Assembly (NCBI GenBank): GCA_027487015.1
Contig: JAIYEK010000231.1
Coordinates: forward strand, 1-43,331
Direction of reading: 5' to 3'
Source: Erythrobacteraceae bacterium
GTDB taxonomy: Bacteria > Pseudomonadota > Alphaproteobacteria > Sphingomonadales > Sphingomonadaceae
Length of the DNA: 43,331 nt
This document shows positions 1 through 28,093 of this stretch, one piece after another. Below the pieces are notes generated by a model. The model did not search any database, was not told where the DNA came from, and saw only the letters and a program-made list of their open reading frames with translations. Every line of letters starts with the position of its first letter. The first letter of the stretch is position 1. Made by a program: the position numbers and the translations under genes.

Positions 1-1721
1 CAGCGCTTTGGCTGCCCCGACAAACCCCGAGTGCGGTCGTGGCGGAACTGGTAGACGCGCAACGTTGAGGTCGTTGTGGGCGAAAGCCCGTGGAAGTTCG
101 AGTCTTCTCGACCGCACCATTTCCGGTCAAAGCTGGGCACCGAGCCCTGCGCTCTTGCGAGAGCAGCGACCCCTTGGGCAAGGGCGTCAGTTTCGCCTTC
201 GATCTTGATCCGTTCGCCAACGCGGACCGTCTTCACGAAGGCATGAACGATTTTTTGGCGCGCTTTCGAATCGCCTTCGATCAGCCGCTGCCTAACGACC
301 TCTCCGAACCTCGTCACGGCTGCAGGCGTTATGCTAGTGGGGCCGCGATCAAGCTGCTGGCGCAGGGAGGCGACGGTCGCGTTCAGCCCGTCGATTTCTG
401 CTCTGCGGTTCTTCAAACGCTCCCGGACATCAGCATCCCGCGCCGACATTGTTCCCAGCTCAATTGCATCGTGGATCCTGCTGAGCCGCTTGCGCGCTTC
501 ATCGAGTTGCTCCTCTGAGCGCTGAAGATCCGCAAGCTTACGGGTCCGCGCCTCGTCGGAAGTGTCGAGCATTTTCTGGAGCAGCGGACGCAGTCTCTCC
601 TCGGAAAAGATTTCCTCGGCGACCGCTTGGGTCACAAGTGCATCAAGCTTCTCAGCGCGAACCTTTGGGCAACCACAGGATGATGCGCCACGGTTCACGG
701 CTGAATTGCACGCATAATACTTGTATTGTCCTGACTTCCCAGTGCGAATGGTCATCCCGCAGCCGCAGCCAGACATTCCGCACCGGGCGACACCGACAAG
801 CAACGTGGTGCCCGCCACTACGTGGGGCGGAGTGACCCGGGGCGCGCGAGATGCGCGCAACGCAGCAACGCGGTCAAACTGCTCCTGTGATATGAGCTGA
901 GGACAATCGACCCAAATCCACTCGTCCTCAGGTAGCAGGTTACCAAGCTCATCCACCTTCGAACCAGGGAAACGCCCAAGATAGTGCGGTCGTTGAAGAA
1001 GATCCGCGACATTTGAGTTGTGAAACTTCCTGCCACGCAATGTGTAGCCATTGGCGTTGAGATGCTCTGCAATCGCGCGGGCTCCCATCGGTGACCCGTC
1101 GAACCCGCGTTCCGCCAGATCAAAGATGAGCCTTACGACCTCGGATTCAGCCTCGTTTACGAATAGCTTCTTTTTTTCCTTCTTGCTCCGGACCTCAGCC
1201 GTTCGCGACTCATAACCGAGCGGCACCACTCCGCCAGGCCAAAACCCTTCTGCTGCAGTTCCACGCAGGCCCCGTCTCGTATTGAAGGCGGCTTTGATGA
1301 CATATTCCTGATCTTGCCATGAAGTCACCAACTTCATCAGCAGCCCATTATGACCGGGCTGAAACTCCTGCAAGACGAAGCGAAGGGTGACACCTGCTCG
1401 CCGTAGCCTGCCTTCCATCAATATGCTGAACTCTACGTCGCGCGCGATCCGCGCCATATCAGTTGCAACGATGAAATCGACGGGGTGATCATCGCCAGTC
1501 GCAAGATCGATCATACGATTGAACTGAGGCCGATTCCAATCGCTTCCCGACAGTCCTGGTTCATCAAAAACGTCGACCAGCTCGAAACCGTTCTTAGCGC
1601 AGTAAGCCGCAAGATCGGCAGCCTGTTGCTTTCGAGATGTCAAATTTTCTGCCTGTTCGGCAGTCGAAACGCGAACATATGCGTAGGCGCGTGGTTTACG
1701 GCGCAGCTCATGGACGCTCAT
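1..1721 (-). CDS. Large serine recombinase (resolvase N-term, recombinase domain, zinc ribbon, coiled-coil); stop codon lies beyond the left window edge
   Basis: Hand translation from ATG at 1721: MSVHELRRKPRAYAYVRVSTAEQAENLTSRKQQAADLAAYCAKNGFELVDVFDEPGLSGSDWNRPQFNRMI...; zinc ribbon CGMSGCGCGMTIRTGKSGQYKYYACNS..GASSCGCPK; frame still open at position 1. Confidence 0.9.
   Translation of the reverse strand, partial: MSVHELRRKPRAYAYVRVSTAEQAENLTSRKQQAADLAAYCAKNGFELVDVFDEPGLSGSDWNRPQFNRMIDLATGDDHPVDFIVATDMARIARDVEFSILMEGRLRRAGVTLRFVLQEFQPGHNGLLMKLVTSWQDQEYVIKAAFNTRRGLRGTAAEGFWPGGVVPLGYESRTAEVRSKKEKKKLFVNEAESEVVRLIFDLAERGFDGSPMGARAIAEHLNANGYTLRGRKFHNSNVADLLQRPHYLGRFPGSKVDELGNLLPEDEWIWVDCPQLISQEQFDRVAALRASRAPRVTPPHVVAGTTLLVGVARCGMSGCGCGMTIRTGKSGQYKYYACNSAVNRGASSCGCPKVRAEKLDALVTQAVAEEIFSEERLRPLLQKMLDTSDEARTRKLADLQRSEEQLDEARKRLSRIHDAIELGTMSARDADVRERLKNRRAEIDGLNATVASLRQQLDRGPTSITPAAVTRFGEVVRQRLIEGDSKARQKIVHAFVKTVRVGERIKIEGETDALAQGVAALARAQGSVPSFDRKWCGREDSNFHGLSPTTTSTLRVYQFRHDRTRGLSGQPKR
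33..119 (+). tRNA. tRNA-Leu (anticodon GAG)
   Basis: GCGGTCGTGGCGGAACTGGTAGACGCGCAACGTTGAGGTCGTTG...GGAAGTTCGAGTCTTCTCGACCGCACCA: acceptor stem GCGGTCG/CGACCGC, anticodon stem CAACG/CGTTG around TTGAGGT, variable arm, T-loop GTTCGAGTC, encoded CCA. Confidence 0.95.
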
Positions 1722-1789
1722 ACATCTACTCCCACCTGCATCCTCCTGACGGCATGCCCACCAATACTGTCAGGAGGATTATTGCAGTC

Positions 1790-2095
1790 TTAGTCAAACA
1801 ACTGGACGCCCACAGCTTGGCATCGGTCAGCCAGAATTTCGCGGTTTTTGTCATCAGAGAAAGCTGCGCGCCCCCCTTCGACAAAAATCGCACCCGCGTC
1901 GCGTGCGGCGACCAAGTCCATCAGAACATTGATCGCTGCATGCTCGTCATCGAGATCGCGGACTATCTCCACCATGTCATAGCCTGCGGTTTGGGCCGTG
2001 AACCGCAGCATCGTGTCCTCGAGCCCGCTGGCAGCGCGGACGCGCCTTGGCCTTGTCCCGCGGGCCGGTCGGTAACCTATCGCTGTCCTACTCAT
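1790..2095 (-). CDS. Small protein resembling a degenerate resolvase N-terminal domain
   Basis: ORF MSRTAIGYRPARGTRPRR...YDMVEIVRDLDDEHAAINVLMDLVAARDAGAIFVEGG...; begins like resolvases (AIGYxR) but lacks the catalytic Ser context; start overlaps upstream ORF stop (ATGAGTAG). Confidence 0.6.
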   Translation of the reverse strand: MSRTAIGYRPARGTRPRRVRAASGLEDTMLRFTAQTAGYDMVEIVRDLDDEHAAINVLMDLVAARDAGAIFVEGGRAAFSDDKNREILADRCQAVGVQLFD

Positions 2096-2258
2096 TGAAT
2101 ACCTCCTTCAGTCCGTCCTCGCCGAGAAGTTCGAGAAGCAGGCGCGCGAGGACGTCCTCCGAGACCGGAGACGCTTGCCACTCGATTTCAATGGGGATGT
2201 CGGTGAGCGGCAGCACGGTCGACACACGTGGGCCGCCGTTTATAGCACCTTTGCCCAT
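2088..2258 (-). CDS. 56-aa hypothetical protein
   Basis: Hand translation MGKGAINGGPRVSTVLPLTDIPIEIEWQASPVSEDVLARLLLELLGEDGLKEVFNE*; 8-nt overlap with next start; same strand as the recombinase module. Confidence 0.6.
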   Translation of the reverse strand: MGKGAINGGPRVSTVLPLTDIPIEIEWQASPVSEDVLARLLLELLGEDGLKEVFNE

Positions 2259-2296
2259 GACGATCATCCGTTCCGATCTTGCCGTCCCAGATTGAC

Positions 2297-3325
2297 TCAG
2301 CTGTTCACGCCGAGAGCGCGGCTCGCCAAAAGCGATGTGACCTCCGCCATCACCTTTTCGAACACCAGCCTGGACTCGTCCTGCGTGAGGGTGTGCGGCA
2401 AGGAGATTGCCGCCCCTCCGGCGCGCGCTGGCGCGAAACCGAGGTGAGCATCAGTGCCGGGAATTGGATGTTTTTTGCCGACGTGACGCGCGCGGGGGCG
2501 TTGCTCGTCGGGCTGCTTCAGATCGAGCCGCTTACAGCATTCAGCATGCGAGATTGCGTCCTCTGAACTCTTCAACTCCAAGATGAGTTGCCGGACCCTC
2601 TCATGAAACTGCTCAAGTCGACTTGCACCATGCATTGGGTTGGCTTCGTCCGCAGCCGCGAGATCCTTGACCTTCCGGGCAAAAGATTCCCAAAGCCCGA
2701 CCGGGATGCGTGCAGGATCGGTGATTATGTCGGCGAGATCCGGGTAGCAATCCTCCGCCCGAGCGGCGCCAATAAGCTGCGAGATCCGGGCCACGGTGAG
2801 CGTTTCATCACCCAAAATCCGCAGTTCCTGCGCGATCTGGACGTAAGTCCGTCCCGCTGCCGAAAGAATAAGCGCCCTGCGCGCCTGCGCCATGGGTTCG
2901 CGCTTGCTGCGTGCCGAGTTGTTTTGCGATCTGATGCGTAGCGCTTCGTCCGCGTCGACGATCTCAATTTCGACGAGCGCGTCGGAATCGAGCTCAACGA
3001 TCGCCGCGAGGAGCACCGAACCGTCAACGACCTGCAGGCCGCACTCAGTGACGACCACAGGAAAAGGTCTCCAGTTCCACGGCTCCGCAGCTCTCGCCAG
3101 CGCTGCATCGTGATCGCCATCTTCCTTGTGCCTACGTTCATGCTGCGGCGCTCTTGCTAGAAGATCACGAGCTTGCACGCGGCGATTGTGGCCATTCGGT
3201 GCATTACTGTTTGGTGAGTTTGGAGGGGCACTTCCTACTTCGGTATTCGTAATGTTCGGCATGCCGAAAAGGTCGCGATCAAACGGCTCTGAAGCCGAAA
3301 GCCTGTCTGCTGCTGTATTCTCCAT
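2297..3325 (-). CDS. ParB/KorB-like DNA-binding protein
   Basis: 342-aa ORF; N-terminal segment PFPVVVTECGLQVVDGSVLLAAIVELDSDALVEIEIVDADEALRIR (ParB-like core) then HTH-like GRTYVQIAQELRILGDETLTVARISQLIGAA; SD GGAGG upstream. Confidence 0.55.
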   Translation of the reverse strand: MENTAADRLSASEPFDRDLFGMPNITNTEVGSAPPNSPNSNAPNGHNRRVQARDLLARAPQHERRHKEDGDHDAALARAAEPWNWRPFPVVVTECGLQVVDGSVLLAAIVELDSDALVEIEIVDADEALRIRSQNNSARSKREPMAQARRALILSAAGRTYVQIAQELRILGDETLTVARISQLIGAARAEDCYPDLADIITDPARIPVGLWESFARKVKDLAAADEANPMHGASRLEQFHERVRQLILELKSSEDAISHAECCKRLDLKQPDEQRPRARHVGKKHPIPGTDAHLGFAPARAGGAAISLPHTLTQDESRLVFEKVMAEVTSLLASRALGVNS

Positions 3326-3422
3326 GGTGTCCTCCGTTGGTTAGAGGACACCTCCGTTAAGCAGTTGGGCGCTATCTGTGGAACAGGTTTCGCTATATAG
3401 TCGAATTATATAAAACAGTCAC

Positions 3423-5219
3423 TTAAGTGGCGATAACGCATGTTTTCGGCTTTTTTTGCGTCAGAGAATATTTCATGCGCCGCTGGTGCTTCCCTGCGAC
3501 CGGAGCGCGGCGATGCTTTGCCTTTGCCAGTGCAGATCCTACTCCTTTCGGCGCGACCGCGAATGACCTCGAAAGGCTGATAGAAGTGGGGACTTCGATC
3601 ATGGCGGCAGACAATTCTAACGCCACCGTCAGTTCTCCCAACTTCATCTTGGAGACCGACTTTCCGGTTTTGCCGATAATGGGGCTGTAGAGCGGATCAA
3701 GTCGGCTTACCTCGTCGGTCAGAGCGCCAAACCACTGATCGAGCGATGCGGTTGATCGCTCCGTGGACCATGCCGCCGGAAGCGGATATACGCGTGCAAA
3801 AGGGTTCTTCTGCTCATCATGTAAACCTCGGCGTGAAAGCGCGCCGTATCTTTTGCGGAGTTCGTTTACCCACGGCGCGCCCCAATCGGGATCATCATAG
3901 AGGAATTCATGAAGAGGGCTTTCCGCAGCAGGCTGAAACAGATCAAATGCCTTACGTTGAATCACCCTCCCGAGCCTGCCTTGCGCCGCTCGTTCAGATT
4001 TCGACCTTGGCTTTGCACGAGTTTCGGAAATTGCCGCAGATGCGGTCGCTGCGTCTGAACACGATCCCTTCCTCTTGCGTGACTGCGGAGCGTGGGACAG
4101 TCGGGCCACGAGTTCAGCAGCCGCTTCGTCGACATCCAGATGCGCAAGCACATTGAGCGCAAGTCGCAGGAATGCGGAGTGAAGGCCGAAGGGGCATAAG
4201 TTCTGCGACGCGACAACCTCTGGGAAGCGCTGGTGGCAGGAGAAGAAATATATCAAAAGAAAGTCTAGGGGCGAAAAGCCCATGATCGAATGATATCGCA
4301 AGCCTTCTGGAGCATCTGCGCGATGGCGCGCTGCACGAAGCGGTTTCAGAAAACCGGCCGCAACACGCGCGTGATTGTCCGGGTCGCCGACGGTAATGTC
4401 ACCAATGCCGAAAACATCGGCAAACAACAAAACAGGCTCCAGATCGGCGAAAATGAATGCCTTGGATCTTCCCACACAGGTATGGCGAAACAGCTTCAGG
4501 TGAGCTTTGACATAATCGCAGGTCCGCTCAAACTCCAACGCCTGCTCGAGCACGAAGATGACTGCACCGACAACGTCCATGCGCTTGATTAGATGGCCAC
4601 AATGCCTCTCGAACTCAGGTGTGGCGGCCAGCCCGTCATGGCGGACTGACTCCAATAATGCCTTGAGATCGCCCCTCCAGGCATATGCCATCGCTTTACA
4701 ATTGCGCTCTTTCGACTTTTGAAAAATCGACAGGACGCCCAATGCCGCGGCTACAGCAGCAGGTGTGGGGTGGCGGCACAGTCCCAAGGCCTGTTCAACC
4801 AGCGGATCTATCGACTGCTCGGCTGCTTCCCATTCCCCTTGAGCGAAGTTGTGCAAATAACGAAAACGATAATCGCAGATCCCGGCCAGCTCCTTTTCGT
4901 CCGGGTGCCCTGTTTTGGAGTAACCCGTGGCCGGGTTCAGCCGCAGCGCCACCTTTTCGAGGTCCTTGTCCTTCCCAGAACCTCTGGCCAAGGGAACTCT
5001 GAGGCCGGCGCTCGTCCAAGGCTGCGCTGGCAATGTCACGCCAAGGGCCGCCATGCTGCTTGTCGTGCTGGCGCTGCTCATTGCCTTAATGAGCGCGGGC
5101 CTTTGGTAGTCGAGTTCATCGACGATCACGTCGGCCAGCTTGTCCGTCCACCGCCTGCTGTCGGACGAGGGTAGAGCCCGAAGCGGCCCGCTAAACCGAG
5201 GTCTTTTACGCATTCCCAT
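3423..5219 (-). CDS. Hypothetical protein (~598 aa)
   Basis: ORF 3423-5372; probable start MGMRKRPRFSGPLRAL at 5219 overlaps the stop of the upstream ORF (5206). Confidence 0.7.
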   Translation of the reverse strand: MGMRKRPRFSGPLRALPSSDSRRWTDKLADVIVDELDYQRPALIKAMSSASTTSSMAALGVTLPAQPWTSAGLRVPLARGSGKDKDLEKVALRLNPATGYSKTGHPDEKELAGICDYRFRYLHNFAQGEWEAAEQSIDPLVEQALGLCRHPTPAAVAAALGVLSIFQKSKERNCKAMAYAWRGDLKALLESVRHDGLAATPEFERHCGHLIKRMDVVGAVIFVLEQALEFERTCDYVKAHLKLFRHTCVGRSKAFIFADLEPVLLFADVFGIGDITVGDPDNHARVAAGFLKPLRAARHRADAPEGLRYHSIMGFSPLDFLLIYFFSCHQRFPEVVASQNLCPFGLHSAFLRLALNVLAHLDVDEAAAELVARLSHAPQSRKRKGSCSDAATASAAISETRAKPRSKSERAAQGRLGRVIQRKAFDLFQPAAESPLHEFLYDDPDWGAPWVNELRKRYGALSRRGLHDEQKNPFARVYPLPAAWSTERSTASLDQWFGALTDEVSRLDPLYSPIIGKTGKSVSKMKLGELTVALELSAAMIEVPTSISLSRSFAVAPKGVGSALAKAKHRRAPVAGKHQRRMKYSLTQKKPKTCVIAT

Positions 5220-5835
5220 CGAGCGCCTCCGCCGCGGAGTTGAAAGCCGTTCGGGCTCGCAGATATTCGGGGTGAACCGTGCCTCGGAAGCTCTCCCAAC
5301 TGCGCAGGTCAGTTTTGGCTTTCCTGATCGCTTCGAGATTGGCGTCGAGCGCGTCCCGCAGAGCAATGGCACTTTCTTTGAAGGTTTCCAGAAGCGAAAT
5401 CGCCAAATCTAGGGGCAACTTCGGCGGTGGTGCGTATTCGGGAAGCAATTCTAGCGCAGCCTTCGCGGCTTCCCAGGTTCCTGGCATGATCTCACCACGA
5501 GCAAAGATTGCTTGCTGCGCCGACGAGATCTCCCAAGGCGGCACTGGGTCTGACCTGGCGCCATGCAGCTCTTGCCACCAGGGCAGGCACAAATGACACC
5601 GTTCTAGCGTTGCCTCGACTTCTGAACGCTCTGCTCTTGAAGCCGATATTTGGGCATTAAGGTAATGCGCGAAGAGCTCCGAACGAGCTGACTCCAGTTG
5701 CGCCGCGTCCGTAGGCCGACCGCCTGCTACCGCCTTGTCGAGTTCGGCATCTATTTCTGCAAAACAGGAATCATAGTCGTCGAGGGTCGCCACGATCCAT
5801 TTTGATCCGCTTGGGCTCGTCCAAGTCAGCGTCAT
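5206..5835 (-). CDS. Hypothetical protein (209 aa)
   Basis: ORF MTLTWTSPSGSKWIVATLDDYDSCFAEIDAELD...; start overlaps upstream stop by 4 nt (5832-5835). Confidence 0.75.
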   Translation of the reverse strand: MTLTWTSPSGSKWIVATLDDYDSCFAEIDAELDKAVAGGRPTDAAQLESARSELFAHYLNAQISASRAERSEVEATLERCHLCLPWWQELHGARSDPVPPWEISSAQQAIFARGEIMPGTWEAAKAALELLPEYAPPPKLPLDLAISLLETFKESAIALRDALDANLEAIRKAKTDLRSWESFRGTVHPEYLRARTAFNSAAEALDGNA

Positions 5836-6569
5836 TTCACCCTCCTATAACGGGGGTTGGCTGCAACATCGTGCAACCATAGAAACGCAGCCCTGCGGTC
5901 CGGTATTTCCGGAAACTCAATGTCGAGGCATTCAACCGTATAGCGCACCAGCCACAGCTGCTTACCCGACGGCGGCTTACGCAGCATTGCAGCCAGAGTT
6001 CCCTCGTCGAGGGTTTTCAAAAAGGCCTGTGTGCGATCAACGTAGGCGTCGTATTTGCGGCGCCATTCCTCATATCTGCCGCGATCTTCAAGCATGGCTG
6101 CGGCGCGATTGAGGAAGATCATCAGTGCTTCGCCCATGGTCTTGCCGGCGATGAAGCCCGCTTTCCAATGATCGAGGACAACATCGTCATCCAGAACGTC
6201 CTTCGGCCGCATGGCAAGGAAGCCATCGAGCGCCCTCGCATCGTGCGCCGAAAATCCATAAGCCGTCAGGACGGCACCAATGGTAATTTGGTGGTAAACA
6301 TCTTGCGGATCGCGATAGGCAACTTCGCCAGGCACGATCTGCTCCAAGGCCGCGCCTCTTTCTATTGCCTTCAATTCTGCAGACACGCGGCTCAGTTCGC
6401 GCACCACCTCGGTCAGCGGAATTTCACTTGCGGTAGGTCGAATCGTATTCATTCGCCGGAACATAGCGTAAACATAAATCTCGGCCAATAGATAATCTGC
6501 AATGTGTTTTACTTTTGACTGCCCAGTTAACTGAACGTTCTCAGTCAAGAAGCTATCCGCAGCACCCAT
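5832..6569 (-). CDS. Hypothetical protein (245 aa), first gene of a three-gene operon
   Basis: ORF MGAADSFLTENVQLTGQSKVKHIADYLLAEIYVYAMFRRM...; 4-nt overlap with next ORF. Confidence 0.75.
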   Translation of the reverse strand: MGAADSFLTENVQLTGQSKVKHIADYLLAEIYVYAMFRRMNTIRPTASEIPLTEVVRELSRVSAELKAIERGAALEQIVPGEVAYRDPQDVYHQITIGAVLTAYGFSAHDARALDGFLAMRPKDVLDDDVVLDHWKAGFIAGKTMGEALMIFLNRAAAMLEDRGRYEEWRRKYDAYVDRTQAFLKTLDEGTLAAMLRKPPSGKQLWLVRYTVECLDIEFPEIPDRRAAFLWLHDVAANPRYRRVK

Positions 6570-6587
6570 ACTTAAGTGGCCTTAAGT
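6570..6587. promoter_or_regulatory. Dyad ACTTAAG-TGGC-CTTAAGT abutting a start codon
   Basis: Direct reading: 7-bp inverted arms with 4-bp spacer immediately upstream of the minus-strand ATG at 6569. Confidence 0.5.
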
Positions 6588-6689
6588 TGGCTCTCGCTAT
6601 CTGACAGCATTTTCTATGTCCCACTTTGCCGCTTTTGATTGCTGGCCTACCAACCATATGAGACAATCATTCTGAGTTTTTGGAGGTTA

Positions 6690-6766
6690 GGGGTGGGTCT
6701 AGGCGAAATAAATGTTGCCCACTTTAGCTGGCCAAGACCCACCCCCCGTTTTGCAGACCCACCCCC
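6690..6766. repeat. Three copies of AGACCCACCCC (one inverted, two direct at 20-bp period); operator or oriT candidate
   Basis: GGGGTGGGTCT 6690-6700; AGACCCACCCC 6735-6745 and 6755-6765; the last copy abuts the relaxase ATG at 6767. Confidence 0.75.
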
Positions 6767-9445
6767 ATGAGAACCAAGCCAAGATCAGGTTGCCGATTGG
6801 TCCGGCCAGGCTCGCAGGAGCAGAAGGCGCTTTGCGCTCGCCCGCGCGGCGACGCCTATTATGCTATCCTTGCGGACCGAGAACACCGCAGGGAAGCATG
6901 GGCCGAGTGCCGGCACATCAAATCGGTCGAGCGCATCCTCCGCGAGCAGCAAGAGGCCCAGCGCGAGCGCGAGAAGGTGCATCGTTCCTTCCGCGTAAAG
7001 CGCCACAAGAATTGGGAAGATGTGACGATAGGCGTGAAGGCGCATGCGGCACGGCTGATACTGCCCACGCGGATGCCCGGTGCTCTCATGCCGCGCTACT
7101 CGAATCCGATCATCGATACGAAGGGCCGCTTGTTCGTATTCCAGCGCATTCGCTATTATTCATCGTTGAAGACCAAGCAGGGACACTGCCGCGATCGGGC
7201 ATCATACGGCATGGATGGCGCACACGTCTTTCCCGGCGGCACCTTGGCCGTGGACAGCAACATGGGGGAGACGCGGGGCGAAATCCTCGAGTGCGTCGAT
7301 TTCGTCGAGCTGGTCAATCGCACCGCTGCCAGGAACGCCAAGACCTTCTTCCACGGCATCATGCAGAGCTGCCACGAGCTTTCACCGGAGCAGCAGTTTG
7401 AGATGGCCAAAGCTTACGCCGAAGAGACCTTCGGAGGTCAGGGGCTGCCCTATCTTGTCTGCCTCCACCCGCCGAGTGCCGAGGGCGACCAGCGCAACTG
7501 GCATGTGCACTTGTTCTTCTCGTTCCGCCCCGTGACGCGCGTCAACGAGGGCGAATGGGAGATTGGTCGTCACCTGCGCACCGACCTCGACGCCCCGACG
7601 CAGTTCAAGCGTCTGCGCGCGCTGTGGGCGGCCGAGTTAAACTTCGCCTGCGAGAAGGCCGGACTCGAAAGACGCTACACCCACCTCAGCTACGCAGCCG
7701 CCGGCGTTGACTGGGTGCCGCAAAAGCATTTGGGTGAGGGCCTCACCGCAAAGGTTCGCCGCGGCGAGCACGTCGCGCTCAACCTTGCCAATCACCGGAT
7801 CGCAGCGCGCAATGCGCTCAAGCGCGCCACCCAGGCGTTCCGCGCTGAGTTGATGTCGCGGGTGTCAAAAACACGCGAGGCGGTCGAAGCTGCTCTGAAC
7901 GCCGCGGTCATGGCGCAGGCCGTGCGATCAGCAATGCCAGCGCAGAGTCCAGATTGGGCTCTCCGCACTGCTGCCGTGGAGCAGGCGCCAATAGCCTCAC
8001 CCAATGGGAACGCCTCCGCGTCGAAGCCCGCCCCTTGGACGATTGGCTCTGCTCTCGTCAGCAAGTTGCAAGAATCGTCCGCACCGCGTCCGAGCCCTAG
8101 GCCCTTCGCTCTGAAAGCCAAGGCGCCGGCAGCTCAACTGCCATCGGCGGCAACATTACCTCCGCGTCCGACACCGTTCGCTTTGCGGGTGACGCTTCCT
8201 TCAACTGCGATTCCTACCGCGCCCGCGCCGTGGCCTTGCCCGCAGCCATTTGTTCTGCCGTCCGTATCGCACTCTTTGCATCCGCCCGCCGCGCCAGCGC
8301 CGCGCCCGCGTTCCAAGCCGTTCACTCTTCTAGCCAAACCACCGGCCCAGCATTTACCCGCAGCGCCCGCACCACGTCCAGCTCCGAAACCATTCAGATT
8401 AAGCGCCGCTATTGCTGCCGCTTTACCATCGGCCGCGCCTCAGATGCACGCCGCGATCAAGGCACGGCTCGGCCTTGGTGCCAATCCAATCGCGCCACCG
8501 AGTAAACAGGCACCGTGGTCTCCCCGCAACTTAAGTGCGCTTAAGTCGCGGCCGGTGGTGACGTTTGGAGCCGCAACACGTGCTCTGACGCAAAGCCAAG
8601 CGGGTCCTGCCGCCTCCTCGTCGTCAGGGAATCCCCCGTCGGTATCGGGGTTCCTTGCGGCGCCAGCACATGCGGCAGGGTCGCGCCCATGGCTTCGCGA
8701 ACCTGCAAGGGCCACACTTCTCAAAGATCTTCAAGAGCGGGCCGTCTACGTCGAGCGAGTCGATACCGGACAGGTTCTGCCGGTTCTTATGGAGCGCGGC
8801 CTGTATCAGTTTTCGCGCGCTGACCTCGCTGACCCCGGCATGCAGGCGCACCTTGCGCATATGTATCAGCGGCAACAGGCGTTCCTTAGTCGGTTCAATC
8901 CGATCGCTGCGAACAGGATCGGGGAATCAGATTTGAATAGGAGCAACAAGGCCATGATCGCCAAGCTCCCCGATGATCTGCAGTCGGAGGCGGAGGCTTG
9001 GGCAAAGACGGCCCTCTGGGACAAAATCATGCGCGATCTGCGTGAACACGGCCTGCGTCGCAGCAGACAATCAGTTGAAGCCTGGCGAACGGCTCTTCGC
9101 ACCTCCGATAGGCGCCGGTTCGAACTTGCCGCCAATGCGTCGGACCAGAACCGCCTGTGGCCCATCGAGGAATATGATCAGGTGAGCCAGGCGCTAGAGC
9201 GGGACGCCAGCGTTCACCGTCAGCGCCTCGGGATCTATCAGGCAGCGCAGAGTGGTGGGGGGAGCAGTGCTCCAGTGTCGGCAGTATCGAGCCGCAACAG
9301 CAATGCGACAGATAAAGGTAGCGCTGCGCCTTCCGGCCCGACCGAGCAGGACGCAACGCTGACAGATCCACGGACAGGGCTGAACCACGATGCGAACCGA
9401 GGCCGCAGTCCACTTCCGCCACCTCAGGATGATAAAGGATTGTGA
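6767..9445 (+). CDS. MobA/MobL-family (MobQ-like) relaxase with Pro/Ala-rich repeat linker
   Basis: 892-aa ORF; MobA/MobL-like segment ending in the HxH metal motif (NWHVHLFFSFRPV), then a long Pro-rich region and a C-terminal domain. Confidence 0.7.
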   Translation: MRTKPRSGCRLVRPGSQEQKALCARPRGDAYYAILADREHRREAWAECRHIKSVERILREQQEAQREREKVHRSFRVKRHKNWEDVTIGVKAHAARLILPTRMPGALMPRYSNPIIDTKGRLFVFQRIRYYSSLKTKQGHCRDRASYGMDGAHVFPGGTLAVDSNMGETRGEILECVDFVELVNRTAARNAKTFFHGIMQSCHELSPEQQFEMAKAYAEETFGGQGLPYLVCLHPPSAEGDQRNWHVHLFFSFRPVTRVNEGEWEIGRHLRTDLDAPTQFKRLRALWAAELNFACEKAGLERRYTHLSYAAAGVDWVPQKHLGEGLTAKVRRGEHVALNLANHRIAARNALKRATQAFRAELMSRVSKTREAVEAALNAAVMAQAVRSAMPAQSPDWALRTAAVEQAPIASPNGNASASKPAPWTIGSALVSKLQESSAPRPSPRPFALKAKAPAAQLPSAATLPPRPTPFALRVTLPSTAIPTAPAPWPCPQPFVLPSVSHSLHPPAAPAPRPRSKPFTLLAKPPAQHLPAAPAPRPAPKPFRLSAAIAAALPSAAPQMHAAIKARLGLGANPIAPPSKQAPWSPRNLSALKSRPVVTFGAATRALTQSQAGPAASSSSGNPPSVSGFLAAPAHAAGSRPWLREPARATLLKDLQERAVYVERVDTGQVLPVLMERGLYQFSRADLADPGMQAHLAHMYQRQQAFLSRFNPIAANRIGESDLNRSNKAMIAKLPDDLQSEAEAWAKTALWDKIMRDLREHGLRRSRQSVEAWRTALRTSDRRRFELAANASDQNRLWPIEEYDQVSQALERDASVHRQRLGIYQAAQSGGGSSAPVSAVSSRNSNATDKGSAAPSGPTEQDATLTDPRTGLNHDANRGRSPLPPPQDDKGL

Positions 9446-9638
9446 CGTGTTAATGAAGCAAGCGGCTATGGGCCGGGGCGGCTCCCGACCCAGACCCAGT
9501 CATTCCCAAGCATCAATGGCAAAGCTTGCTTCCGCTGAAAACCGCCATGCAGCTTTCGGGATCGCCCATTGGCCACGCTCATGGCTGGAGCTGGGTGGAA
9601 AGTCGAATGGCAGCATCGGGACAACCTGCCGGGCAAGG

Positions 9639-10967
9639 TCAAAACGCGATGTGCACACCAAAGCCCGGGCGCGGGGCAATGGTGGCTCTGCCAGAATGGG
9701 CGGCCACGATTGCCGCAACCATGGCCAGCCCCAGACCATGGCCAGGCGTGGATCGGCTGCGGTCGACCCGTGCAAACCGATTGAAGAGGTCTGGCGCCTC
9801 ATTCTCGCTCACTCCCGGACCATCATCAGTGACGGCGAGGCAGATGCCGTTATGAGTGCTTTCGCAGGTGATGTGGACGGTCGTTCCCTGCGGCGTGTGC
9901 TGCGCGGCATTGTCGAGCAGGTTCGTGAGCATCTGTTGCAGCAGCCTGCGATCGCCGGGCAAAGTCAGGCCGGGCGCAATGCTGGTTACAAGCTGGTGGC
10001 CGCTGCTCTCCATTGAGGGTCGGAACGTCTCCGCCACATCGGCCACCACCGCGCTGAGATCCACCGTCTGGAAGTGCGCGCGGGCGGCCATGCCTTCGAC
10101 TTCGGCAATCCGCAGCAGGGCGGAAAAGACCTCCAGCAGTTCACCAGCTTCGCTTGCTGCCGCTTCGATTGCCTCGCGTTGCAGCTCGGGGTTGAGCTCG
10201 CGCAGGGCCTCGTCGAGCCGGTTTTGCAGCCGCGTGAGCGGCGTGCGCAGGTCGTGGGCAACATCGCTGGAAACCTGTCGCAGGTTCTCCATCAGCCCGG
10301 TAATGCGGTCGAGCATCCGGTTAAGCGTCGTGGCCACACCGTCAAACTCGTCGCCGCTTCCGGTCAGTGGCACGCGCCGCGAGAGATCGCCGGCAATGAT
10401 CGCAGCAGCCGTGTGATCGATGCGGGCAAGCCGCCGCTGCGTGACGATGCCCACCAGCCAAGCGGCACCGATGCCGAGCAACAGCATCGCTCCGAATGCG
10501 CCGAGGAACAGGAGTATGAAACGCCTGTCCATTTCGTCGATTGCGGCACGATCGGCCGCGACCAGCAACCGGTAGTCCCCGGGCAGGACCGTGGTCAGCG
10601 ATTGCGCGATCCGCTCCTCGCCACCCGCCTTATAGGGCAATAGTTCGACATAGCCGGGCTTTGGCGGGACAGTCGTATCGAGCGATCCTGCTACGGGTCT
10701 GTTTTGGGCATCGACGAGCCGATAGCCGAGGCTTGCCGTGCTGCTTGCCGCCTCGCGCCGACGGATAGCGGCAGCCACGCCCTCATGCCCGTCCTGCCCT
10801 TCATCGATTAGCGCCTGCGTCTCGATGGCGATGCGGTGATCGAGTTGCAATTCAAGTGCCTCATGGGTCGTTTCGAATGCGACCGCGCCGATCACCAGCG
10901 TTGCGAGCGCAAAGCCCACAGCGACAGCAGCCACCAGACCGAACGTGCCGCGCCACCAGCGCTTCAT
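9639..10967 (-). CDS. Two-component sensor histidine kinase (CusS/CopS-like)
   Basis: Start MKRWWRGTFGLVAAVAVGF at 10967 (4-nt overlap with RR stop); HAMP region, H-box SSDVAHDLRTPLTRLQ, N-box LLDNAAQHTPQGT, G-box GPGV/GHGLGLAMV. Confidence 0.93.
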   Translation of the reverse strand: MKRWWRGTFGLVAAVAVGFALATLVIGAVAFETTHEALELQLDHRIAIETQALIDEGQDGHEGVAAAIRRREAASSTASLGYRLVDAQNRPVAGSLDTTVPPKPGYVELLPYKAGGEERIAQSLTTVLPGDYRLLVAADRAAIDEMDRRFILLFLGAFGAMLLLGIGAAWLVGIVTQRRLARIDHTAAAIIAGDLSRRVPLTGSGDEFDGVATTLNRMLDRITGLMENLRQVSSDVAHDLRTPLTRLQNRLDEALRELNPELQREAIEAAASEAGELLEVFSALLRIAEVEGMAARAHFQTVDLSAVVADVAETFRPSMESSGHQLVTSIAPGLTLPGDRRLLQQMLTNLLDNAAQHTPQGTTVHITCESTHNGICLAVTDDGPGVSENEAPDLFNRFARVDRSRSTPGHGLGLAMVAAIVAAHSGRATIAPRPGFGVHIAF

Positions 10968-11641
10968 CCGCCGTCCCTGATGAGATAGCCCGCGCCGCGC
11001 ACGGTCTCGATCGGGTCGCTGTCGAACCCGGCGTTGAGTTTGGAGCGCAACCGGCTGAGGTGAGTCTCGACGATATTGGTCTTGGGGTCGAAGTCGAAAT
11101 CCCACACCCGTTCGAGTAGCATGGTGCGGGTCATGATGCGGCCGGGGTTGCGCATCAATTCGGTCAGAAGCGTGAACTCGCGGGGCTGGAGCGCAATCTT
11201 GCGGCCTGCGCGCGTGACGGTGCGGCGGTGCAGATCGAGCACAATGTCGCCTGCCGTCAGCCGCGCAGGCTCTGCTGCCGTCGAAGGCCGACGCCCCAGC
11301 GCTTGGAGACGGGCCGCCAGCTCGGTAAAGGCAAAGGGCTTCACCAGATAGTCATCCGCCCCGCCTTCGAGCCCTTCGACCCGGTCGCCAATCCCGCTGA
11401 CGGCGGTGAGCATCAGCACCGGGGTCATGTTTCCGGCAGCGCGCAGAGCCTTGACGAGAGCGAGGCCATCCAGCCCCGGCAGCATCCGGTCGACCACCAC
11501 GGCATCGAAGCCGCCTTCGGTTGCGTGATACAGGCCATCCCGCCCATCGCCGCTGGCCACCACCTGATGGCCCAGTTCGGCAAGGCCGCGGGCGATGAAC
11601 TGGTTGGTATCGGCATCGTCCTCGACGATCAGGATTCTCAT
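10964..11641 (-). CDS. OmpR/PhoB-family response regulator
   Basis: MRILIVEDDADTNQFIARGLAELGHQV...VDRMLPGLDGLALVKALR...; C-terminal winged helix RIMTRTMLLERVWDFDFDPKTNIVETHLSRLRSKL. Confidence 0.95.
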   Translation of the reverse strand: MRILIVEDDADTNQFIARGLAELGHQVVASGDGRDGLYHATEGGFDAVVVDRMLPGLDGLALVKALRAAGNMTPVLMLTAVSGIGDRVEGLEGGADDYLVKPFAFTELAARLQALGRRPSTAAEPARLTAGDIVLDLHRRTVTRAGRKIALQPREFTLLTELMRNPGRIMTRTMLLERVWDFDFDPKTNIVETHLSRLRSKLNAGFDSDPIETVRGAGYLIRDGG

Positions 11642-11645
11642 GCGA

Positions 11646-13025
11646 TCATTCTAGCGGCTTGGCACCGCTGCACCAGCCACCGCCAAGCGCGCGGAACAGC
11701 GCCACCTGCGCCTGCGCAACGGCGAGTTCGGACTGTGCGAGCGACAGTTCGGCTTGTGCCAGCGTCCGGTCGGCATCGATCCGTAGCAGCGGTGCCGCAT
11801 CGCCGAGCCGGACGCGCGCCTCGGCGCGGCGGGCATAGAGGCGTCCTTCGTCGCGCGCCTCGGTCAGCGCCCGGTTCCGGCGCACTTCGCCATCATAGGC
11901 CGCAAGCGCTGTCTCGACATCACGCAGCGCCCGGAGAACCACGACATCCCACCCGGCCAGCGCGGCCCGCTCGGCCGCCTCAGCCTGTTCGATCCGGGCG
12001 CGGGCCGGGGCCTGATTGGGGAAGGCCCAGCTCACCAGCGGTGAACCCGTTGCAACCAGCCCACCGCTCAGCAGGCCGAGTGCGCCGCCAAGGTTTATGC
12101 GGGGGTAGAGATCGGCACGCGCCACGCCGATCCGCGCCGTGGCGGCAGCGAGGCGGCGCTCGGCCTCACGGATGTCAGGGCGGCGCAGCAGCAGCGCGGT
12201 TCCATCACCGACGGGAGCCGCAGTGCGCAGTTTCGGCGGCGCGGTGCAAGTCACGGGATTGCTGCGGGCCTCTGCTGCCGGGCGTCCTGCGAGCGTGGCG
12301 AGGCGGTAGCGCGCATTGGCCTGCGCTGCTTCCAGCGGTGCAATGGCCGCCTTGGTCGCGGCGACAAGGTTGGCAGCCTGCGAGACTTCCAGCGGGGAGA
12401 CCTCGCCTGCCGCCAGCTGTCTACGGGTGATTGTCAGCGCGCGGTCCTGAAGCGCGACCTGTTCTTGCACGACGGCAAGGCTGCGGGTTGCTCCGCACAG
12501 ATCGACATAGGCCAGAACCGTATCCGCGACGACCGCGACCTTGACTGCATCGAGCGCAGCGGCCTGCGCTTCCGCATCGGCGCGGGCAGCGAGCGCACCT
12601 GAGCGAAGCCGACCGAACACGTCCGCATCCCAGCTTGCGGTTACCCCCAGATCGTAGTCGGTCGTCGGCACATTGCCCGAGGCGCTGGGCTGATTGGCGG
12701 GATTGTCGATGCCGAGGCTGCTCTCGATCGTGGTCTGGGGCAACCGGGCGGCTTGCGCCTGACGGAGCGCCGCACGCGCGCCATCGAGATTGGCATAGGC
12801 CACTCTGAGATCGGCATTGGCTGCAAAGCTGGCTTCGACCAAGCGGTCAAGCACAGGATCATCATAGAGCCGCCACCAATCATCGGGCACCGGCTCGATC
12901 GAAGCGACCGGCAGGCTCGCGAACGGTCCGGCTGCAATCGCGGGGTCGATCTTGGTTGCCGCAGGCGGGGACGTGGTCGCGCAAGCGGTCACCATCAGGG
13001 CAGCGAGGGGGACAAAGCGCTTCAT
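11646..13025 (-). CDS. RND efflux outer-membrane lipoprotein (NodT family)
   Basis: Start [21 protein letters not shown] at 13025 (lipobox); [47 protein letters not shown] typical of OEP proteins. Confidence 0.92.
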
Positions 13026-16000
13026 GCCACCGCCTCTGCCAGTTCGGGCTCGGGTGCCGGCTGTTCCTTGCCGAAGCGGGCATAGAGCGCGGGCATCAGG
13101 AACAGGTTGAGCGCAGTCGACGAGATTAGGCCGCCGAGGATGACGATCGCCATGGGATGCTCGATCTCGTGACCCGGCTTGTCGCCCGCGATCACCAGCG
13201 GCACCAGCGCAAGTCCTGCGCACATTGCGGTCATTAAGATTGGCACCAGACGTTCCTGCGCGCCGCGCAGGATCAGGGCCGGGCCGAACTCCTCGCCCTC
13301 GAACCGGCGCAGGTGATCATAGTGCGAGAGCAGCATGATCCCGTTGCGCGCCGAAATCCCGATCACCGTCACAAAGCCGACCAGCGATCCCAGCGACAGA
13401 ACCCCGCCGGTGAGCGCAACCCCGATCACCCCGCCGACCAGCGCGAAGGGCAGGCTGAGGCCCACCAGCGCGGTGATCCGGGCCGAACGAAACTCCAGCC
13501 AGACGAGCAGCAGGATGCCGAAAAGGCAGACCAGGCCCACCGTCCACAGCCGCGACCGCGATTCCTTGAGCGCTGCATATTCGCCGAGAATCTCGGGATG
13601 GTAGCCGGTGGCGAAGGGCACTTCGCTCACCGCCGCCTCAACCCCGCGCGCTACGGCTCCGAGATCGGCATCACTCGCGATATTGAGCGTGACATCGAGA
13701 CGGCGCTGGCCATCCTCGCGCTTGATTTCGTTGGGCGCGGGCACGATCACCACATCGGCGACGTCGCGCAGGCGCACCGGCGCGCCGACCGGGGTCTGGA
13801 TCATCAGATCGGCGAGCGCGTGCTGGTCGCCGCGAATGGCTGGCTCGCCCCACAAGGCGACATCGAAAGCCTTCTGGTCGCGGTAGATCTCGCCCAGCTT
13901 CTCGCCCGCCACGAGGGTCTGTGCCTGCCGCCGCACCTCGCCCGGCGTCAGGCCCAACGTGACCAGATCGGCCGCGCGCGGGCGGATCTGGATCTGCGGC
14001 ACCAGCACCTGCTGTTCGACCTTGAGGTCGGTTACACCGGGGATGCTGGCGACCTTGCCGCGCACCCGCTCGGCTGCGGCCCGCAGCTCGTCCTGATCGG
14101 GGCCGTAGATCCGCACCACCACGGTCGCGCCTGCGCCCGAGAGCACCTCCTTGATGCGCTCGCGCAGATAGGTGAGCACGTCGCGGTAGAGGCCGGGATA
14201 GCCGTCAACCACTTCCTTGATCCGGGCAACGCTGGCGTCGTAGTCGGCCCCATCGTCAAGGCTGATCCACAGTTCGGTGAAGTTCGGGCCGACCACCTCG
14301 TCAGCTGCCTCGGCACGCCCGATATGCGCACCGAAGTTGCGCACGCCGGGGATGGCCCGCAGCTCCTTCGAGGCGCGGATGGTGATGCGGTCCATCGCCT
14401 CGATACCGATGCCCGGCTTCTCGACGAAGTGCATAAGGAAGTCGGTCTCGCGGAAATCAGGTAGGAACTGGTCCTTGAATCCGAGGTAGCCTACGCCGGA
14501 AAGCAGCAAGCCGCCCGCGACGATGCCCATGGCAAGCCGTGGCCGTTCGATCAGCCGGGGCAGGACGCCAAGATAGCGCCGCTTGAGCGAGGCGACAAAG
14601 CGTGTGTCGCGATGCTCCTTCATCGGCGCATTGGGGAGCAGCATCAGGCACATCGCAGGCGTCACCACCAGCGCGACCAGCAGCGAGGCGGCAATTGCCA
14701 GCACATAGGCAATTGCCAGTGGCCGGAAGAATGTTCCTGCCACCCCGCCGAGGAAGAAGATCGGCAAGAATACCAGCATCACGATCAGCGAGGCAAAGAC
14801 AACCGCCGTGCGCACTTCGAGCGAGGCCGAGAGCACCACGGCAAAGGCCGAGCGCGGATTGCCCGCCTCCCGGTTCAGGCGGAGACGGCGGGCGATGTTC
14901 TCGACATCGATGATCGCATCATCGACCACCTCGCCAAGCGCGATCACCAGTCCGGCGATCACCATTGTGTTGATCGTCGCCCCGCTCCAAAGCAGCACCA
15001 GTCCTGCGGCCAACAGGGACAGCGGGATCGCCACAAGGCTGATCGTCGCCTGCCGCCAGTCACGTGTGAAGGCGAACAGCACGATCGCCACCAGCAGGCA
15101 GCCGATCATCAGCGCGCGGGTCAGGTTGTCGATCGACTTCTCGATGAAGGTTGCAGGGCGGAAGATCGTGGTGTCGATCTTGACGTCCTTGAGGCCGGGC
15201 CGCAGCTCTTCGACCGCTGCCTCGACGTCGCGGGTCAGCTGGAGCGTGTTGCCGGTCGGCTGCTTCTCGACGATCAGCATGATACCCGGGCCGTCGTCGA
15301 TGATCGCATTGCCGATGGGGGCGGCAAAGCCATCGGTCACCCGCGCGACATCCCCCACCCGCACCGGCGCATCGCCTGCGATCTTGATGACCGTGCGGGA
15401 AAGATCCTCGGCGGTCTGGATCGCGCCCGCCTGCTGCACCGGAAGCCGCTGGTTGGGCGTATCGACAAAGCCGCCGCCGCCGACCAGCACCGCATCCCCG
15501 GTCGCCGCGCGTAGTTCGGCCAGCGTGACGCCCGAGGCTTGCAGCCGATCGGGATCGGCCAGAACCTGCAACTGCCGGTCGCGGTAGCCCCACACGGCGA
15601 CATTGGCGACACCCGGCACTGACATCAGCTTGGGCCGGATCGTCCAGCGAACCAGCTCGGACAGCTGCATCTGATCGAGCTTCTTCGAGGAGATGCCGAT
15701 CTTCATTGCCCGACTCGTGGACGACAGCGGCGGCAGCATCACAGGCGGGCGGGCAGCGGCAGGCAGTCGCGCCTGCACCTGCGCCACCCGCTCCTGCACC
15801 AGCTGGCGGGCGCGGATGACATCAGTGCCGCGTTCGAACAGGATCGTCACCGAAGACAGCCCCAGCACCGACTTCGATCGCAGGGTTGCGAGATCGGGCA
15901 CGCCATTGACAGCGGTCTCGATCGGCACCGTGATCAGGCTTTCGACCTCCTCGGTCGACAGGCCCGGCGCTTCGGTCTGTATCTCGACGATAGGCGGAGC

Positions 16001-16126
16001 GAACTCGGGGAACACATCCAGCGGCACATCGGCAGAGGCGCGCAGGCCGAGCACGACAAGCAGCGCCGCCATCGCAAGCACCAGCACGCGCTGCTTGAGC
16101 GCCGAGCGAACCAGCCAGGCCAGCAT
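13022..16126 (-). CDS. Heavy-metal RND efflux pump (CusA/CzcA family)
   Basis: Start [30 protein letters not shown] at 16126; [49 protein letters not shown]. Confidence 0.95.
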
Positions 16127-17115
16127 CAGTGTGCGACCCCGAACTCGGTGCCGAACAGCTCGGCAGCGCCTGCCGTGACCACCAGCGTTCCGGGACGCAG
16201 GCCCCGCGACAGGATCGCGCGGCCACCTTCCGTTGCTGCCACCTCGATCCGCTGGCGCACATAGTTGTCGGCCTCGGTCTTGGCATAGACCCATTCGCCG
16301 CCGTAGATGTCCCGCAGGATCGCGGAGGTTGGCACCGACAGTCCTTCGCTCTGCCCGCTAGCAAGCGGCAGCGCGACGCTGACCCGCTGGCCGACACGGT
16401 AGGCCCGATCACGATTGTCGAGCGCGAAATAGAGATCGACGGTGCCGGCCACCGCATTGGCCGATGGCGGCGCATCGACGGGCCGCGCCGATCGTTTCGC
16501 GCCATCCTGTCCAAGCGGCGAGACCAGCGCCGACTGACCTTGTGGCAGCCCGGCAAGATCGCTCCCGAACACTGGCACCCGCACCCAGACGTAGCGTTGG
16601 TTGCCAAGGCTCGCCACCGCTGGCCCGAGCAGGCGGCGCTGGGCCGCAGCCGCATCGGCAGCAGCCTTGGCCGCACCGAGTGCTGCCGTCGCCTCATCCC
16701 GCGCACGGATGCTTCCCGCTTCCTCATCAACCAACGCCGAGGCGCGATCATAGGCGACGCGCGCCAAAGCAAGCTGCGCCCGTGCCCGCGCAAGTTCGCC
16801 ATCAGCGCCGACCTGCTGCACGCCAAGCTGTTGCAGATTGCTGGCGGAGTTGATCGGCGCGGCGCCGACCCCCGCCGGGACGACAATCTCACCGCTTGTC
16901 ATGCGCATGGCCGATGCGGTGCCCGTCCCGATCCGCTCGGTCACAATCCCGAGCCGCTTTTGCGCTTCCGGCGTAAGCTTCAGGCGGACAAGCTCGGTCT
17001 CGTGGGCGATTGCCTCGCTGTGGACCGGGGCCTTGGCAGGCGCAGCGGGTTCACCTCCGCAGGCGGTCAGGAGGATGGCAGGGCCGAAAGCGGCAAGGGC
17101 TAAGCGATTTGGCAT
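16126..17115 (-). CDS. RND efflux periplasmic adaptor (membrane fusion protein)
   Basis: Lipoprotein N-terminus [21 protein letters not shown]; hairpin and barrel-like region; stop overlaps CzcA-like start. Confidence 0.9.
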
Positions 17116-17135
17116 TCCTGCCGCATAGAGCGCTC

Positions 17136-17179
17136 ACATTGGGGCAATGTTGGCAAAGCTATACAATATCCCAATGTTG
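17136..17179. promoter_or_regulatory. Putative response-regulator binding region upstream of the efflux operon
   Basis: ACATTG-GGG-CAATGT inverted repeat 17136-17150 and a further CCCAATGTTG at 17170-17179; minus strand shows CAACATTG twice at 27-nt spacing flanking TATTGTATAG. Confidence 0.5.
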
Positions 17180-17599
17180 CAGCGCGATCTGCTGCCATCA
17201 TCGAGTTGCTGCAGTTAGGGCGGCTATGAGGTCGGTTTGTGAATTTCCGCTTCCGGGGGGAAACATATTGAAGCTGCCCAGCAGGTATCGGGATCGCGCG
17301 TCGGCCTGGCTCATAGCCGGGAACCCGTCCGCCCCCATTAGAGGACAGCATCGCGTCAGCCTGCCGCCATCAAGGTATCGATCCAGCGCTGTTGATGGAA
17401 CGCCACCGGGTCGCCCAATGCTACCTCGATTTCAGGCGCCGCGGTGCGCAAAAGGTGACGCAACAGAGACTTGGCATAGGGTCACCCATAGAAGCGGTCG
17501 CACTTTCTTCATCATCAATGCCTAAACCGGTAGAACGGTGGGTGGCACAGTTAAAGAAAAACAGCTGGCCCTCGAGCCAAGCAAGATGGAGTTTGAAGC

Positions 17600-17851
17600 G
17601 TGTCCATGATAAGCGACCAATGGGTGGACTTCGAACGTCCCGCAAGGCGCGGCGCAAGGGGCTGGAATAAGGACTTCGCCGATGGCGTCTCGATCTTCCT
17701 GCGCCTCGATGATGCGGCGCGCTGCAGTCTCACTTCCGACCTCATCCGTGCATGGCAGTTCGAGCTTCCACTGAACCGGGCGATGGCCAGCGGCGCACTA
17801 CGGCAGGCCTGGGAAAGCGAACCATACATGGGTGGGATCCGATGCGGGTAG
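17600..17851 (+). CDS. 83-aa hypothetical protein, upstream partner or split N-terminus of the next ORF
   Basis: ORF MSMISDQWVDFERPARRGARGWNKDFADGVSIFLRLDDAARCSLTSDLIRAWQFELPLNRAMASGALRQAWESEPYMGGIRCG; 3 nt before next start. Confidence 0.5.
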   Translation: MSMISDQWVDFERPARRGARGWNKDFADGVSIFLRLDDAARCSLTSDLIRAWQFELPLNRAMASGALRQAWESEPYMGGIRCG

Positions 17852-17854
17852 TTC

Positions 17855-18262
17855 GTGAGCAAGGTTGCGCACGAGAGGGGCGACGACTTCTATTGGAACA
17901 TGGACGAGTTAGCCGAAGAATGGGGACCGAGCCTGATGACCGACGAAGAGGAGGAGAAGCTAGAAGCAATGGAATTCCCCCTCACCGTATACAGGGGAGG
18001 GACCGGCAGTATCCACGAGGTTGCGCAGGGTATCAGCTGGACGTTGGACCTCGAGATTGCCAAATTTTATGCATTGGACTGGCCTAAGCGATGGGGCATC
18101 GAGCCGGAGCCGATGATTGTCTCAATGCAGGTGGAGTGCGACGACGTCTTTGCCTTTCTCGATGGGCGCAAGGAGTCGGAACTGCTCGTGCCATACGCCT
18201 CGTTGCTTCGCGAAGCCATGACCGAGGTAACGGATCGTGTGGGCATCAGATTGGCTGGATAG
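17855..18262 (+). CDS. Possible ADP-ribosyltransferase-like protein (135 aa)
   Basis: GTG start; motif order PLTVYRGG / GISWTLDLEIAKFYA / VFAFLDGRKESELLV resembles an R-S-ExE arrangement. Confidence 0.45.
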   Translation: MSKVAHERGDDFYWNMDELAEEWGPSLMTDEEEEKLEAMEFPLTVYRGGTGSIHEVAQGISWTLDLEIAKFYALDWPKRWGIEPEPMIVSMQVECDDVFAFLDGRKESELLVPYASLLREAMTEVTDRVGIRLAG

Positions 18263-18839
18263 CGGCAGTGGCGCGTGCAGCGCCCCCCTCGACCCCGACT
18301 GTCTCGAGGAGAAGAAGATCCCTACAACTCTCCGCTTGCAACCCGCGGGTTCGGAAATCGTCGACTTTCCGGCGCCTATCGGCGTCCGAAACTTTAAACG
18401 GCGAATATTCGCCAGCTTTCTGGCAAACGTTTCGGAAAAGCTGCCGTGCAGCGTTCAAATACGGCCTTTCCTATGCAGCTTCGCGCAGGTTGTGGCGTCA
18501 CCGCCAGCGGGCCGATTTGCAATTGTATCTATGGGGCAACAAGAGGCATATGGCCGCCTTTCAACCTTCCACGCATAGACGGCAGTTGTTGACCCAAAGA
18601 CGGTCCTTCAGATCAGCTACCATGAACGTCTGCTGCTAACAGAAGCTGCCTTTGAACCGCTCGGCTCCAGACCGTTAAGAAGACGCCCTTTTTCGTCTTT
18701 CAGCGGGTTGGCCACCAAATCCACAAAACAGCCGCATGTTCACCTTGCGTTCTCAACGCCCTTGCCATATTCGTTCCGAATGTCACTGTCAAAGGGCACT
18801 GATTGCCACTACCCTTCAGCGCTCAATTAGAGGTCGCAC

Positions 18840-21607: not shown

Positions 21608-21625
21608 GCCTCGTAATTACGAGGC
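21608..21625. promoter_or_regulatory. 18-bp perfect palindrome GCCTCGTAATTACGAGGC covering the SD-like GAGG of the next gene
   Basis: Direct reading; ATG at 21631. Confidence 0.6.
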
Positions 21626-21630
21626 GAAGT

Positions 21631-22575: not shown

Positions 22576-22665
22576 GAGCGGTTTGGGTGAGCTGAATCCG
22601 GGAATGGAAAAGGCTTCGCTCCCCTTGCGCGGGGGAGCGCCACACTAACAAGGAACCACAATACC

Positions 22666-22761: not shown

Positions 22762-22855
22762 CAGATAAAAATGAGCCTCTCCTAGGAAGGAAAAAAGGGG
22801 CTTCGGCCTGTGCGGCGTCCGCTCAGGCTACCAAGAAACTAAAAAGGAACGAAAT

Positions 22856-28089: not shown

Positions 28090-28093
28090 TGGA

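Follow-up and report, generated by a model that had tools for sequence, protein, structure and literature searches.

The integrase gene and its tRNA target

We analysed a stretch of 43,331 nucleotides from an Erythrobacteraceae bacterium (hereafter the window), which is the entire contig JAIYEK010000231.1 (C308) of a draft assembly of 350 contigs. At its left end lies the gene of a large serine recombinase (LSR), the predicted integrase of an integrated element, and this gene continues in frame into the tRNA gene at which the element sits. The minus-strand frame starts with the ATG at position 1721 and stays open to the window end (1..1721, 573 codons), passing through the antisense of an intact tRNA-Leu(GAG) that was located with ARAGORN at 33..119 on the plus strand. 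This tRNA gene is the predicted integration target, and its antisense would encode the C-terminal tail of the integrated form. The LSR core extends to an invariant tryptophan, Trp535 (117..1721, minus strand; from the survey and alignments described below), whose TGG codon is the complement of the tRNA CCA at 117-119. The initial annotation had described an uninterrupted frame running from ATG 1721 through the antisense tRNA-Leu, and translation reproduced the C-terminal sequence that it had noted.

The same annotation had proposed to look for the stop codon by extending the sequence leftward. A second contig of the assembly (C320, 6,047 bp) terminates in an exact 101-bp copy of window positions 1-101 and has orthologous counterparts in three relatives, where they lie upstream of tRNA-Leu(GAG). 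When the two contigs were joined, the stop codon was found 69 bp to the left of position 1, giving an integrated product of 596 aa. The join consists of one 101-bp k-mer overlap in a fragmentary draft. The in-frame overlap of the LSR and tRNA genes at this join is not due to chance, because it was found in 75 out of 75 relatives in which the gene abuts an intact tRNA. We also considered the break between the contigs as proof of a mixed population of occupied and empty sites and rejected it, since such a fork would be expected after position 119 and not after 101.

Based on its domains, fold and attP form, the predicted protein is a large serine recombinase. Pfam matches were obtained for the domains Resolvase (PF00239, E=5e-21), Recombinase (PF07508) and Zn_ribbon_recom (PF13408), and the catalytic serine of the resolvase domain, S19, was invariant in both alignments in which it was inspected (A2 and A3). 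An AlphaFold model built on a 52-sequence alignment was confident for the core up to about residue 525 and contained long helices at 382-421 and 430-458, corresponding to the coiled coil of large serine recombinases. Residues 526-573, covering the attP-encoded half and the tail, had a pLDDT below 50 and are thus predicted to form a disordered C-terminus outside the confident fold. The model matched the folds of the SPbeta, phiC31 and Bxb1 integrase complexes, and A118 was among the best sequence and fold matches in the PDB. SPbeta YokA, phiC31, Bxb1 and A118 share fold and domain order with the LSR of the window at only about 15-20% identity, and their structure records are silent on a C-terminus shared with attP. 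In entry 9dxd a YokA chain carries SPbeta YotN, and the complexes are described as integrase plus recombination directionality factor (RDF). Integration between attP and attB and RDF-dependent excision are the activities predicted for an enzyme of this class. Directly upstream of the LSR gene lies an ORF of 101 aa (1790..2095, minus strand), inside a 2.4-kb block that is conserved with a related element in genome G031; at a guess, it could encode a directionality factor.

Attachment sites and limits of the element

The right end of the element, which was missed in the initial annotation, was found by orthology and by means of a conserved 65-bp sequence. The attL core GCACCA (114..119, plus strand) forms the last bases of the tRNA gene and is shared with the attR core at 38442..38447 (plus strand), which is followed by AATTCTCTCTTCTGAAATCGAG. 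About 80 bp from attR onwards match the DNA directly after the unoccupied tRNA-Leu(GAG) of relatives, with 81% identity over 81 bp at one locus (L073) and further matches at L062, L063 and L067. The ABC-2 transporter and M16 peptidase genes come after these first ~80 bp of the chromosomal flank (38448..43331). This empty-site comparison sets the boundaries of the integrated element at 114..38447, or 38,328 bp core to core, and upholds the tRNA boundary against the possibility that it lay elsewhere. The window is therefore predicted, with good support from these comparisons, to hold a complete element of about 38.3 kb integrated at the 3' end of tRNA-Leu(GAG).

Next to the attL core lies one half-site of attP, P' (TTTCCGGTCAAAGCTGGGCAC, 120..140, plus strand), within the 3' end of the LSR gene, where it encodes VPSFDRK. 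The other half-site, P (GTGCCCATCTTTGTCCTCAGAAGG, 38418..38441, plus strand), forms the right end of the element and its arm is an inverted repeat of P'. Joining of the element ends gives an attP of 51 bp, GTGCCCATCTTTGTCCTCAGAAGG-GCACCA-TTTCCGGTCAAAGCTGGGCAC, with a shared core of 6 bp and with the arms GTGCCCAnCTTTG and CAAAGnTGGGCAC placed symmetrically about the centre, as in serine integrases. On the joined attP the recombinase frame would not enter a tRNA. It would continue after Trp535 into CPSEDKDGHSNHWEISLEMPLNKKQK and stop at the TAG at 38364-38366 (tail region 38364..38444, minus strand), so that the predicted circular form has 561 aa, ends in ...SFDRKW-CPSEDKDGHSNHWEISLEMPLNKKQK, and has its last 26 residues encoded by the element. 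The attP thus lies inside the open reading frame, and the integrated product of 596 aa and the predicted circular product of 561 aa have different C-termini.

A related element of about 38.5 kb in G031 carries an LSR that is 93% identical to that of the window and is inserted at tRNA-Leu(CAG), while the tRNA-Leu(GAG) of that genome is empty. The identity of the two proteins ends at the tRNA, where the G031 protein continues with CPEEDSNLHALASAAT and then stops. The right-end 65 bp of the two elements are 94% identical. A search for long direct repeats in G031 revealed no attR, the core being too short. A generic attP-arm pattern applied to 23 genomes mostly gave hits at control level, but also two perfect right ends. 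In the genome of the window itself (G000), the tRNA-Leu(CAG) that is occupied in G031 lies at the end of a contig (C325; L109:6300-6403) and is cut off inside the tRNA.

Integrated tails in related recombinases

Homologues were collected by scanning species genomes and viral contigs, with a few loci from elsewhere, and 108 of them could be read across the gene end. The loci were picked for their similarity and lack phylogenetic independence. Before counting, we set aside copies whose frame was broken or whose match was short, and the counts therefore describe intact genes. An intact tRNA gene (Ser, Arg, Glu, Leu, Thr, Lys, His or Met) was abutted by 75 of the 108 homologues. The TGG opposite the CCA of the tRNA was in frame at every one of these 75 loci, and the frame entered the tRNA each time; the stop lay within the tRNA in 50 cases and past it in 25. 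Recombinases that stop before the tRNA, which would have spoken against the idea of the initial annotation, did not occur among these 75 intact genes. The overlap of the frame with the tRNA is, as read from these genes, a trait of the family. Most of the remaining homologues abut apparent tRNA 3' fragments or different sequence. At seven loci (L138, L139, L175, L189, L194, L197 and L222) the LSR gene abuts the 3' half of a tRNA, beginning close to the anticodon loop, a remnant of the kind expected from tyrosine-integrase islands at the same tRNA.

The integrated tails ranged from 2 to about 365 aa and showed no pattern other than the tRNA; the DSN that is found in them is the antisense of the tRNA T-loop. 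Two sets of loci (L202, L205 and L213; L210 and L211) have LSR cores that are identical up to Trp535, lie at different tRNA-Ser genes and carry different tails. The target tRNA, and not descent, therefore writes the integrated C-terminus. Trp535 was invariant in an alignment of 55 sequences from many genera, because the elements bring along the CCA needed to restore the host tRNA. Antisense-tRNA peptides are known database artefacts, and the initial annotation had cautioned that the one found here might be such a case. If so, the extension of the ORF would be accidental and the recombinase would be made with neither tail. We consider this hardly credible, as Trp535 and the frame are conserved in all 55 aligned homologues and the alternative tail of the circular form bears a signal of coding selection (see below). 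The antisense-tRNA peptide appears instead to be a true continuation of the frame in this LSR clade.

A conserved tail encoded at the right end

When 76 bp of the right end were used to search genomes across the order, 58 of 401 had sites. Translation of 61 distinct right ends, starting at the core TGG, gave a shared peptide of about W-CPxxDKDGHSNHWEIS-[VLI]-x-[RL]-P-stop. The frame that aligns with the LSR was open to codon 20 in 60 of the 61, and a stop was found at codons 20-23 in 45. In two control frames stops at these codons were seen in only 2 of 28 and 1 of 26 survivors, and 2,000 shuffles of the sequence after codon 16 gave a mean of 7.2 and a maximum of 18, compared with the observed 45. 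When the set was reduced to sequences that are mutually less than 60% identical in this part, the stop still fell at codons 20-23 in 30 of 43. The clustering is not an artefact of the search, because the search matches mostly ended before the stop. It therefore points to coding selection on the joined gene of the excised form.

The conservation at the right end could also be that of a DNA element, such as an extended arm of the attachment site or a site bound by an RDF or a host factor, and not that of a coding sequence. In a 25-bp motif, AATTTCCCAATGATTTGAGTGCCCA, third codon positions are conserved too, and the motif is kept at right ends that have no LSR gene in cis. Beyond this motif, however, nucleotide identity drops to 0.35 and yet the stop keeps its position. 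The stop codons are mixed (TGA, TAA or TAG), and third bases in codons 16-20 vary almost freely, with the class of residue preserved (S = TCN, R = AGR/CGN, P = CCN). We consider a purely DNA-level origin improbable.

Complete elements, unpaired right ends and tandem junctions

We paired a right end with an LSR gene when both were on the same contig and in the expected orientation. No complete elements were found within 20 kb of right ends, the elements being 20-75 kb long. In total 12 more complete elements were recovered from 11 genomes, plus two that are split across contigs. The LSR cores of the 12 are 30-66% identical to that of the window and their targets are tRNA-Leu(GAG), tRNA-Thr(CGT) and tRNA-Arg (CCG, TCT and CCT); a tRNA-Leu(CAG) target occurs among the split elements. 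All reconstructed circular tails of the 12 elements were of the same type, with 19-28 residues and a GHSNHWEI-like motif, which was matched at 6-8 of its 8 positions even at 30-36% core identity.

Right-end sites, attR-like and with an intact circular tail, outnumber LSR genes (L278-L345). No LSR at E<=1e-40 was found in 35 of 56 genomes with a right-end site; examples of unpaired right ends are G065:C6:35392, G162:C1:7293 and 15285, and G301:C1:10568 and 28053. Possibly these are cassettes that are mobilised in trans, or scars. A second attP arm was also sought within 10 kb of other LSR genes, which gave one useful case, the tandem locus L193. There (L193:2208-2500), and at L295 and L300, we observed tandem junctions or relics of them, in which a complete or decayed LSR 3' end is fused to the right-end tail of another element. 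Such a fusion recreates a reading frame of the circular type inside the chromosome.

Predicted tail exchange upon integration

Taken together, attP spans the 3' end of the integrase gene, and, as read from the reconstructed junctions, integration would swap a conserved tail for a target-dependent one. One attP half-site codes for VPSFDRK, with the crossover region read as Trp535 in antisense of the CCA, and the other for the conserved tail of about 20 residues with its own stop. This tail would be continuous with the LSR gene only in the circular form, or beside a second element. Upon integration it would be moved away by the length of the whole element (38 kb here), and the antisense-tRNA tail of the tRNA that was hit would take its place. 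The initial annotation had suggested that integration at the tRNA 3' end sets the tail and stop codon of the recombinase, with C-termini that differ between the integrated and excised forms, and the attachment sites and the conserved circular tail bear this out at the level of sequence. We infer that the circle-encoded enzyme is the form that has been selected to perform integration. The integrated enzyme would be differently tailed, often differently sized, and produced from a transcript that crosses the tRNA in antisense orientation. Its activity, direction or amount may thereby be biased by the integration state, and excision would be driven by the tRNA-tailed form, probably together with a directionality factor. 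The exchange of tails may thus regulate integration or excision. As a whole, we give a rough probability of two in three (0.66) to an explanation in which tails are exchanged through an attP inside the gene, the circular form integrates and the tRNA-tailed form excises.

The alternative with most bearing on this explanation is a passive overlap, in which an attP with CCA happens to sit in the 3' end of the integrase gene and the circular tail serves only folding or stability, the tRNA-derived tail being tolerated after integration, with no switch. The wide and, except for the tRNA, patternless range of the integrated tails fits such an overlap, as does the predicted disorder of the tail region. 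Against it, the circular tail keeps its length and residues while the LSR cores diverge to 30% identity, and its loss at every integration is therefore unlikely to be wholly without effect. We consider the passive overlap rather unlikely. The wild variation of the integrated tails also suggested that tails are irrelevant altogether, a reading that we rejected in view of the conserved circular tails.

Several points weigh against the explanation by tail exchange. The integrated tails, being so variable, look tolerated rather than tuned. In codons 8-15 of the circular tail even the third positions are conserved; the conservation is thus partly at the DNA level, and a DNA motif overlaps the coding signal there. 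The evidence for the conserved tail comes from elements that target tRNA-Leu, tRNA-Thr and tRNA-Arg and does not extend to the large group that targets tRNA-Ser. Tails are equally well kept at right ends without a recognisable LSR gene, which selection through an LSR in cis does not explain. Finally, the circles are reconstructions, and the excised state, the activity and both protein forms are predictions from DNA sequence. A further extension of the tail exchange, in which it would act throughout the clade as a memory of the integration state, is tentative and in our opinion possible rather than probable. The circular tail would then favour integration, the tRNA-derived tail would disable re-integration or permit excision, and a second element inserted in tandem would give the first one back a tail of the native type.

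Element type and cargo

The element also encodes a MobA/MobL relaxase (6767..9445, plus strand). With the LSR and the attL and attR sites this makes it, by predicted gene content, an integrative and mobilisable element. No match to type IV secretion was found among the 30 main ORFs that were scanned. The region 9639-16294 carries a two-component system (histidine kinase and response regulator) beside an RND efflux operon, which includes an outer-membrane efflux protein and an AcrB-type pump. Defence-like cargo was found at 25786-38189, including type I restriction-modification (R, S and M genes), a DUF4011/MTES_1575 helicase-nuclease of 1,561 aa, a GmrSD_N protein and a HEPN protein. Near the LSR gene (3423-5835) lie two overlapping ORFs, one of 649 aa with no Pfam match and one of 209 aa whose HEPN_AbiU2 match is weak and falls below the cut-off.

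Comparison with known systems and implications

A serine integrase that overlaps attL is already known. DsiB, from the ssrA-specific islands of Dehalococcoides, is a serine recombinase that overlaps attL and has a site-dependent C-terminus, and its authors suggested that it is perhaps fully functional only on the circle (PMC3146451). Its target is ssrA and not a tRNA gene, it was called a CcrB homologue, and its likeness to the LSR studied here is one of description; those parts of the report that deal with DsiB contain no circular-form tail or test of selection (PMC3146451). In mycobacteriophage BPs the attP lies inside the repressor ORF, and integration alters the C-terminus and sets the activity of the protein (PMC4557955). 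The LSR of the window resembles BPs in having attP inside an ORF and different C-termini in the integrated and free forms, a likeness seen in sequence here. In BPs, however, the gene encodes a repressor and not an integrase, the prophage form is the shorter one and the effect has been shown experimentally (PMC4557955). Haloarchaeal proviruses contain a coding sequence that overlaps attP and is intact only once circularised (PMC7911831), which is a separate gene beside the integrase and not the integrase itself (PMC7911831). In the open-access literature that was searched we found no account of the attP-in-gene arrangement in tRNA-targeting LSRs, nor of a conserved integrase tail that exists only in the circle.

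The frame overlap explains the 'recombinase family protein' records that end in DSN-containing antisense-tRNA peptides. For those who build tools from such enzymes it means that attP would lie inside the gene and that genome annotations show the C-terminus of the integrated form, which derives from the host. How the direction of serine integrases is controlled is a central question, which is usually answered by the RDF. Here the enzyme's own C-terminus would change depending on whether the element is integrated. Any genome sequence reveals the alternative tails, and nature already provides identical enzymes that differ in their tails, which makes the idea that these tails may influence integration or excision directly testable.
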